Origin: Parapedobacter lycopersici
GTDB taxonomy: Bacteria > Bacteroidota > Bacteroidia > Sphingobacteriales > Sphingobacteriaceae
DNA: 64,000 bases
Direction of reading: 5' to 3'
NCBI RefSeq assembly: GCF_024643285.1
Contig: NZ_JAMSLW010000002.1
Coordinates: forward strand, 310,001 to 374,000
The notes below the pieces were generated by a model that worked only from the letters and a program-made list of their open reading frames with translations, made no database searches and was not told the origin of the DNA. The position numbers and the translations under genes were made by a program. Positions 35,370 to 37,107 of this stretch are shown here, in pieces; position 1 is the first letter of the stretch, and the number at the start of each line of letters is the position of its first letter.

Positions 35370-36053
35370 TCAGTTTACCGGGGCAGCGGCAATATCAACA
35401 CCTACCTCAAAATCCTTCGCTACAATCCAATCGGCAGGATCCGCCTCGGCAGTACCGAATTTAAGTCCCCATGCCGTACGATCTACCGTGAATTTGGCAG
35501 AAACGGATGCGACATTATTTTCTACTGCAATCCGGGCAGGGAAAGAAATATTGATGGTGCTATCCAACAGTGTCAGGTTACCACTAACGGTTTTGTTTGC
35601 TCCCTCCACCGCACTGCTTGCTGCTGTACCGGCTAAATCGGCAATGGATGTAACCTCAAAAATAGCCGTAGGGTGTGCTTCCGCATGGAAGAAGTCAGCG
35701 CTTTTTAAATGGGCCTGCAGGTCCTCCACCTTCTTATCGGCTTCCGTTACTGAAGCAGGGTCTACCCATAGGGAATTCACATCAATGGTAAATGTTCCGG
35801 CAGTAACCTGGTCACCGTCAACCGTCAGTTCGCCGGATTGGATGTTGAGTGTGCCCCACCGTGGTGCAAACCCGCCTTTATGGTAAGCCTTCCAGTTTAC
35901 GTTGCTGCTGTCCAGGTTAAGTGCATACGTAGCGCCCTGTCCTTCTGCAACGGCTTGCTTGGAATCGGTAGTCGCTTTGTCTGCACCGGGGTTGTTGCAG
36001 GAAAGGGCAAAACATGCAGCCCCTACAAAAAGTAATGTGTTAAAATGCTTCAT
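35370..36053 (-). CDS. YceI-family lipoprotein
   Basis: 227 residues. The N-terminus (MKHFNTLLFVGAACFALSCNN) is a lipoprotein signal with lipobox ALSC, so the protein is anchored to a membrane. The body is a YceI domain: an eight-strand lipocalin-like barrel with YALNLDSSNVNWKAYH near residue 45, GTFTIDVNSLW, the HLKSADFFHAEAHPTAIFEVT block typical of the family (about 115-135), and FTVDRTAWGLKFG near the end. YceI proteins bind isoprenoid or fatty-amide lipids, and the family is linked to stress and lipid transport. A box GATTTTTG on the - strand (36088-36081) is one base off the -7 consensus. The gene ends in the terminator at 35311-35342. Confidence 0.92.
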   Translation of the reverse strand: MKHFNTLLFVGAACFALSCNNPGADKATTDSKQAVAEGQGATYALNLDSSNVNWKAYHKGGFAPRWGTLNIQSGELTVDGDQVTAGTFTIDVNSLWVDPASVTEADKKVEDLQAHLKSADFFHAEAHPTAIFEVTSIADLAGTAASSAVEGANKTVSGNLTLLDSTINISFPARIAVENNVASVSAKFTVDRTAWGLKFGTAEADPADWIVAKDFEVGVDIAAAPVN

Positions 36054-36537
36054 TGTGTTTTCTGATGATTAAAATTTCTGCAAAAATCGGCAATTCAATT
36101 TAATTGTTTAAACATCTTTTTGTAATTTTATTAGTCATTTCCACTCACGGTTCTGTTTCATGCCCCCCGGGAAATGTCATCCAGCATATCAGAATGGGAA
36201 AATACAAACGTCAGAACCGGCAGACTAAAGGTCACCAGCCTGCCCTTCGGGCAGCCATTGGAAGTCTTTCGGGTAATGTTCGGGAGTTCTTCGAGTCGGC
36301 TTCGAGGCGTGTTCGACTGTTGTTCGACCTTGCTTCGGGACTTGTTCGACACGGCTTCGACTCCGCTTCGACCGCGCTTCGGGGCTCTTCGCAGTGCAAT
36401 CCGTTGCGTTCCGAAGACCTTCGGAAGATTCCCGAAGAGGTCCCGAATAAATCCCGAAGCAGGGTCGAAGCCGTATCGAAGCCTGCTGCACCGGTACCCG
36501 AACAGCGTTGAACCGCTATCCTTTTGCGATGCCGCGG
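36054..36537. other. 484-bp region without genes, carrying the 11-bp array
   Basis: It contains the yceI promoter area (36081-36088), a small hairpin CTGCCC/GGGCAG at 36240-36254 and the TTCG array at 36263-36502. Open frames in several phases run through the array, but they arise from its repetitive make-up and have no protein features I can support. Confidence 0.7.
36263..36502. repeat. Degenerate 11-bp periodic TTCG array that inverts in the middle
   Basis: TTCG starts at 36268 and recurs at 279, 290, 301, 312, 323, 334, 345, 356, 367 and 378, an exact 11-bp step, with one more at 388. Units fit the pattern four variable bases, S, TTCG, R, S. After about 20 bases the opposite orientation follows: CGAA at 36412, 433, 444, 455, 466, 477 and 499, again in steps of 11 (422 degenerate, 488 missing). 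Eleven bases is not a multiple of three, so this is not a protein repeat. It is close to one DNA turn, so all TTCG cores in an arm face the same side of the helix. It lies between phnA and yceI. I do not recognise a named family. Confidence 0.85.
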
Positions 36538-37107
36538 TTAATTCTGCCTTTTAAGGTATTTCGTCAAGATCACGATCAGCTGCCCTTCCACCCGTCCTTC
36601 CACCTGCTCGGGATTGTCTTCTACCAAACGGATGTTTTTGACTACGGTGCCCAGCTTAGCATTAATGGAGCTGCCTTTCACATCCAGGGTTTTGGTAATC
36701 ACCACGGAATCGCCGTTTTGCAGCACATTGCCATGGCTGTCTTTATGCACAACTGCTCCGGGCTGCTCGTCGGGATCTCCCCCGGCCTTTGCCCAGGCCA
36801 GCGTTTCATCGTCAAGGTAAAGCATATCCAGGTTATCGGCTGCCCAGCTTTCATTGCGTAACCGGTTAAGCATGCGCCATGCCAGTACCTGTATGGCCGG
36901 TACTTCGCTCCACATGGTTTCCGACAAAAAATGCCAGTAATGGTCTACCATCGGGGTATTGTTGTCGATCTGCATTCGACACGACTGGCAAATGGCTACT
37001 TCATTATCGGAATAACGGTCGGGAAGCACATGATAGGTCGCAATGTCCGCGGCCGACCCGCATAATTCGCATTTCCCACCACTTCTCTCGTTTAATTTCG
37101 CATTCAT
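36538..37107 (-). CDS. PhnA/YjdM-family zinc-ribbon protein
   Basis: 189 residues. The N-terminal zinc ribbon has two CxxC pairs (CELCG near residue 13 and CQSCR near 40), separated by a His/Asp-rich loop. The C-terminal part (about 115-185) is the PhnA domain: KDSHGNVLQNGDSVVITKTLDVKGSS, then GTVVKNIRLVEDNPEQVEGRVEG, a small SH3-like barrel. The gene was once linked to phosphonate use in E. coli, but the family's function is not settled. It stands as a single gene. A -7 box TAAGTTTG lies on the - strand at 37140-37133, 26 bp before the start. The 11-bp array begins just after its stop. Confidence 0.92.
   Translation of the reverse strand: MNAKLNERSGGKCELCGSAADIATYHVLPDRYSDNEVAICQSCRMQIDNNTPMVDHYWHFLSETMWSEVPAIQVLAWRMLNRLRNESWAADNLDMLYLDDETLAWAKAGGDPDEQPGAVVHKDSHGNVLQNGDSVVITKTLDVKGSSINAKLGTVVKNIRLVEDNPEQVEGRVEGQLIVILTKYLKRQN

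Follow-up and report, generated by a model that had tools for sequence, protein, structure and literature searches.

Convergent 11-bp word arrays dispersed in Parapedobacter lycopersici and related genomes: a probable platform for head-to-tail assembly of a small winged-HTH protein

In the intergenic region between a YceI-like gene and a YjdM/PhnA gene of Parapedobacter lycopersici, the four-base word TTCG recurs at 11-bp steps and then continues as its complement CGAA, raising the question of what keeps so short a word at so regular a pitch and reverses its direction midway. A scan of the window (the whole 64,000-nt stretch of DNA analysed) recovered the eleven TTCG words in exact 11-bp phase (36268, 36279 and onward to 36378) that a sequence-only reading of this DNA had described, and none arose in 100 shuffles; the outermost TTCG of this major arm stands two steps upstream of the phased run. 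The CGAA words reported for the opposite arm were likewise recovered (starts at 36433, 36444, 36455, 36466 and 36477, with 36499 two steps on), together with a further one at 36412. When periods from 6 to 29 were tried, runs appeared only at 11 and at 22, the double step, and a three-word pattern gave 12 matches in the window, all inside the array, compared with a mean of 0.00 across 100 dinucleotide shuffles. The gap between the arms, put at about 20 bases in the sequence-only reading, measures about 30 bases from the last phased TTCG to the first CGAA, or 51 when the phased CGAA run is taken as its end. An imperfect palindrome, GTGCAATCCGTTGCGT, lies within it. A second palindrome, CTGCCCTTCGGGCAG, at the outer end may or may not be part of the array. 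The features are collected in Table 1.

Table 1. Features of the array and its immediate context, in window coordinates
Feature	Position	Strand	Remark
Major arm, TTCG words	36246..36391	+	36246 and 36268-36378 in 11-bp phase, 36388 one base off
Tip, imperfect palindrome GTGCAATCCGTTGCGT between the arms	36394..36409	.	GCAA...TTGC tip in 18/22 own-genome copies
Minor arm, CGAA words (minus-strand TTCG)	36412..36502	-	36433-36477 in 11-bp phase, plus 36412 and 36499
Short perfect palindrome CTGCCCTTCGGGCAG at the outer end, centred on the outermost TTCG	36240..36254	+	seen in the sequence
Flanking gene, YjdM/PhnA domain protein (context)	36538..37107	-	stop codon about 35 bp from the minor arm
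Flanking gene, YceI-like protein (context)	35370..36053	-	start about 190 bp from the major arm

It had been suggested that each arm presents its cores on one face of the DNA. Over 11 steps such a geometry needs underwound or protein-shaped DNA, because 11 bp slightly exceeds the turn of relaxed B-DNA (10.5 bp). A similarity to permease operators through the hexamer TGTTCG, which had been noted as possibly fortuitous, does look like chance, as TGTTCG is not enriched in the window (39 observed versus 32.9 expected).

The array is not a local curiosity, a reading that would have held if no further arrays had turned up in the genome or in relatives. The genome holding the window (labelled G000; L-numbers denote individual array or module loci) contains about 22 dispersed copies, the window copy included, most with at least seven words in a row, and a four-word pattern matches 97 + 78 times there versus 0 + 2 for its reversed control; with strict search patterns, these copy counts are lower bounds. 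Since unit order and the tip are common to the copies, they are related by descent. Across them TTCG is kept in 229 of the 233 phased major-arm units and in 111 of the 142 phased minor-arm units, and outer words that lack a partner in the opposite arm are kept as well. Between the most distant pairs of copies the word differs by 0-5% and the spacers by 20-45%, in a comparison whose word columns are those with the phased word in at least one copy, which somewhat favours the word. The edges of the word, for which G or C before it and a purine followed by G or C after it had been proposed, proved to be conserved too: among 201 distinct G000 units, position 5 is a purine in 97%, position 6 is G or C in 84% and position 11 is G or C in 78%. 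Measured from the last TTCG through the first CGAA, the distance in nearly all compact copies is either 16-17 or 26-28 bp, two lengths one step apart; this agrees better with separate reading of the words on the two arms of duplex DNA than with a paired stem. By our own gene calls, based on codon usage, all 22 copies lie outside called genes, 15 between tandem genes (where the array usually lies close to the stop codon of the gene upstream), 3 between convergent and 4 between divergent ones. The genes next to them are ordinary and include those for ribosomal protein S1 and for isoleucyl- and leucyl-type tRNA synthetases.

The convergent layout is found in 47 of 201 Sphingobacteriaceae genomes, representing 10 of 25 genera, while over the same genomes the divergent control occurs in 1 and the reversed control in 2, so the question of whether the arms always converge can be answered affirmatively; across the phylum the convergent pattern is present in 8 of 395 genomes. 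Between genera the spacers are completely different and the word, the step and the convergent layout unchanged, and between sister species the number of copies varies strongly. No account of such arrays was found in the literature searched.

The 11-bp step is also shared by arrays of other words, namely TACC, GTAC, TTGC and TACG. Plain tandem repeats were the dominant result of an initial contig scan. When 720 kb of loci, most of them chosen for TTCG arrays, were scanned without a preset word, runs of at least six units with variable spacers came up only at periods 11 and 22, besides one poly-T run at period 7; the finds of GTAC and GGTA in these loci are incidental. GTAC arrays show the same two-arm anatomy with a tip of the GCAA...TTGC type, and none of them has an HTH gene assigned to it, which counts against a platform for such a protein. 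In Sphingobacterium, nine loci (L388, L389, L390, L397-L399, L406, L408 and L409) carry GTAC at exact 11-bp steps in two arms around the tip TTACGCAACnGTTGCGTAA, and the GTAC arrays of this genus adjoin TTCG arrays. In front of rpsA, a site that holds a TTCG array in G000, genomes G002 (L436) and G004 (L434) have GGTA(A/T) arrays at 11-bp steps.

A candidate reader of these words is provided by a recurrent module, found in Parapedobacter, Sphingobacterium and Olivibacter as well as in further genera of the family, in which a gene for a small BldC/Xis-like helix-turn-helix (HTH) protein is followed by an array and then by a DUF6266 gene. The HTH protein has about 100 residues with an HTH_17 domain and matches excisionase-type families. 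Searching by the HTH revealed modules with TACC arrays in genomes without strict-pattern TTCG arrays, as well as TTGC in G164. An independent search by DUF6266 over the 201 genomes supplied 119 further upstream regions; among 132 such regions with enough sequence, a word was phased at least six times at period 11 in 31 and at period 22 in 7, no other period within 8 to 23 appeared in them, and none remained after shuffling. An HTH gene of the module family lies upstream in 26 of the 31 period-11 regions. DUF6266 (PF19781) genes are themselves multicopy in the family, reaching 15 or more per genome, and most copies have no upstream array; the family is not named in the literature searched.

Among modules whose arrays have at least five words, the word changes with one residue of the recognition helix, X in the motif T-Y-X-R. 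Where X is Y or F the word is TTCG in all 15 modules, and S goes with TTCG in 2; where X is K the word is TACC in 5 of 6 modules and where X is R in 4 of 4, so that all nine TACC modules have K or R; N with TTGC and L with TACG are represented by one module each. The exception is L574, in which K accompanies TTCG, and two unclear loci (L595 and L602) have A at this position. Fisher tests of the association give p values of 2e-6 per locus, 8e-6 per genome and 0.03 per genus, which lends the rule moderate phylogenetic weight at the genus level, and part of the correlation could stem from common ancestry of the modules. Position X was picked after the first 11 TTCG, 2 TACC and 1 TTGC modules had been seen; about half of the modules came later, when the DUF6266-based search added TTCG, TACC and TACG modules along with the K-TTCG exception. 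On the HTH tree, the pairing of TACC with a basic residue occurs in two separate clades, with about five changes of the word and about five of the residue class. Moreover, G005, G090 and G164 each have a pair of modules that differ in the residue and, correspondingly, in the word, indicating that the word follows the protein rather than genome composition.

G000 encodes one clear member of this HTH family, an intact protein of 99 aa (G000:C16:379209-379508) in which X is F and which is nested among the TTCG-readers on the HTH tree. Its gene lies about 2 kb from the single DUF6266 gene of the genome; no array was found between the two, and the window copy is not adjacent to the HTH gene. An AlphaFold model (pLDDT 80) predicts a long N-terminal helix and a winged HTH with F62 in the recognition helix. 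The nearest solved folds are RacA-DNA (5i44, the best Foldseek match) and BldC-DNA (6ama/6amk), followed by Xis and TorI, with weak E-values and probabilities near 1. This protein is the best candidate binder in G000.

Taken together, the array is probably a dispersed duplex-DNA platform on which subunits of a small winged HTH of BldC/Xis/MerR-like type line up head to tail, each taking up 11 bp. Each subunit would read one TTCG word at the fixed pitch, and the two polar arms would converge on the palindromic tip, where both filaments would end; the resulting nucleoprotein filament would comprise 5 to 14 subunits on each arm. The recognition helix would set the word, such that K or R in place of the Y or F of the TTCG-readers leads to TACC arrays at the same step, and the HTH of G000 would act in trans on the window copy. 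Computation establishes the anatomy, the word constraint, the exclusivity of the 11-bp period, word swapping, HTH-gene association and helix-residue co-variation; we infer the binding itself, the filament and the action in trans. A platform for cooperative protein binding, one of the options that the sequence-only reading had offered, thus appears to be the best supported, by way of a module HTH whose recognition helix co-varies with the word. In relation to the operators of BldC/Xis-like HTH_17 filament proteins, the features found are a small winged HTH encoded in the genome, fixed-pitch repeats with a conserved word, and a word that follows the helix, L574 excepted.

Three other explanations have to be weighed against this platform. 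The arms might fold onto each other, as a structured RNA or a DNA cruciform, into a long hairpin in which each A-form turn (11 bp) contains one UUCG/CGAA helix and which would serve in transcripts as a terminator, stabiliser or processing site. This account, which seems rather improbable, would explain why the arms always converge, why many G000 copies come directly after stop codons, and why, with wobble allowed, pairing of the GCAA...TTGC tip is possible in 18 of 18 copies; the last statistic is not significant, because fewer than one broken pair is expected anyway. The predicted plus-strand fold of the window array also beats shuffles (z -6.2), as any TTCG...CGAA arrangement would. What decides is covariation: spacer complementarity between the arms of one copy (0.497) shows no excess over that between copies (0.525), and in a register fixed at the tip only the innermost unit is slightly in excess (4.37 versus 3.83 of 7, p 0.03), units 2 and 3 from the tip falling below the between-copy level. 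The arms look complementary near the tip, but with the signal beyond the first unit removed by this comparison, a selected RNA hairpin or cruciform is not supported, and the structured RNA proposed in the sequence-only reading has no covariation support beyond that unit. Partnerless outer words are kept, the direction of arrays relative to neighbouring genes is mixed, no Rfam match exceeds the gathering score, and word swapping in step with an HTH residue would be unexpected for a hairpin. Minor-arm variants lean towards G-U-compatible changes, which speaks against the platform and hints weakly that one of the strands may pair when single-stranded. A Rho-type (rut) reading was also discarded, the words GGTA and GTAC lacking the YC rule.

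Somewhat less improbable, yet still unlikely, is a selfish interspersed repeat comparable to REP, MITE or Rickettsia palindromic elements, in which the 11-bp words would be transposase or recombinase sites of no benefit to the cell. Dispersed copies whose number varies strongly between sister species, relatives without a TTCG copy at rpsA, the 16 copies in frame within N-terminal extensions of TlpA/SusC genes and the excisionase-like family of the module HTH all agree with it, and it is compatible with the filament explanation at the level of binding. Against it, neither a target duplication nor a clean empty site was found (at rpsA the comparison offers no clean boundary because the upstream gene of the relatives differs), and long-term conservation of the word over the spacers needs either continuing selection or continuing activity. 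Mobilisation of the RAYT/REP type was rejected on the absence of the Y1/RAYT transposase (PF01797) from G000 and from 8 of the 12 array-rich genomes tested. Only at one locus, L425 (G162:C27:35334-37445), was a TTCG array seen near Y1-transposase genes, two of which lie about 0.5 kb downstream of the array. A slippage product, that is, a plain minisatellite with spacers drifting by chance, deserves very little credence: it would account for the exact period and the head-to-tail units, but slippage makes whole units alike, whereas here only four positions, plus the purine and G/C edges, are kept, the arms are inverted and unit order is common to copies at different places. Such position-specific constraint disfavours the minisatellite reading.

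Several known systems resemble the proposed platform in part. Among them are the operators of BldC in Streptomyces, a small winged HTH of HTH_17/MerR-like fold (the fold match 6ama/6amk) that binds direct repeats head to tail in variable number (PMC5859096) and coats longer sites with one subunit per DNA turn (PMC5859096, PMC11963761). BldC repeats are 9 bp at whiI, few (2-4) and AT-rich, in contrast to the 11-bp pitch and up to 14 units of the present arrays, which further differ in their two convergent arms, dispersed copies and sharp 4-bp word changing between lineages. CarH/CarA operators share 11-bp direct repeats read by a MerR-type DNA-binding domain, CarH binding tandem repeats of the form nnnnTnnACAn (PMC9304148), but comprise three or four repeats at a promoter and involve a cobalamin-binding domain, which the HTH of the long arrays lacks. 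At L495 (G162), 11-bp units ending in ACA lie between the HTH and DUF6266 genes, their word resembling the CarH repeat. The excisionase-like HTH_17 family also links the arrays to phage Xis and to RdfS of integrative and conjugative elements, which form head-to-tail filaments (PMC11963761); these proteins differ in acting at att sites, RdfS without a consensus motif. RacA has a MerR-like fold (5i44) and sites dispersed over the chromosome but binds as a symmetric dimer (PMC5859096), while the 99-aa G000 protein has only an N-terminal helix besides its winged HTH. Like REP/BIME elements and REPINs, the arrays are dispersed palindromic intergenic repeats in genome-specific families; unlike REP/RAYT systems, they lack the GTAG/CGTC tag and, in G000, a RAYT, and they consist of long arms with 11-bp words. 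The BrickBuilt MITE of Porphyromonas gingivalis is another Bacteroidota repeat containing a tandem array, with 23-nt units and IS5-type ends (PMC4596501), unlike the 11-bp arrays described here.

For the cell, the platform might control or insulate the operons next to it, organise the nucleoid, or do no more than propagate as a selfish repeat. A wider proposal, advanced tentatively and with somewhat less than even confidence, is that Sphingobacteriaceae possess an addressable DNA-coating system, in which one recognition-helix position in a family of small, filament-forming winged-HTH proteins would select the 4-bp word that is read every 11 bp along convergent arms. Tens of arrays carrying the matching word would be spread over the chromosome, and each genome would have a private word, sometimes two. 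In the known head-to-tail winged-HTH filaments (BldC, Xis and RdfS) the sites are short or without a clear consensus, making the reading rule hard to see; here the arrays are long, number in the dozens and repeat a sharp word at constant pitch, and word and helix residue change in pairs, so that proteins of 100 residues and DNAs of 150 bp would suffice to test it directly. In a large bacterial group, the dispersed copies would also be a level of chromosome organisation, or of selfish DNA, that has not been described before.

The open frames through the array had been regarded as by-products of a step that is not a multiple of three, and a conserved coding frame had been named as the finding that would exclude a role at the DNA level. 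For the window copy and 20 of the 22 copies in G000 this view holds, conserved frames being absent; at 16 loci in front of TlpA/SusC genes, two of them G000 copies (L080 and L088), an uninterrupted frame runs through the array. The array is thus tolerated in the 5' part of genes if the frame stays open. The loci in question are L080, L088, L094, L095, L098-L100, L107, L390, L398, L399, L402, L405, L406, L408 and L409, at which the array lies within an N-terminal extension of up to about 300 codons that leads from a start motif, such as MKQNL or M..FYKGG, to a TlpA-like or SusC-like signal peptide. Among paralogues with an array-bearing extension, the leader is common and the mature protein differs.
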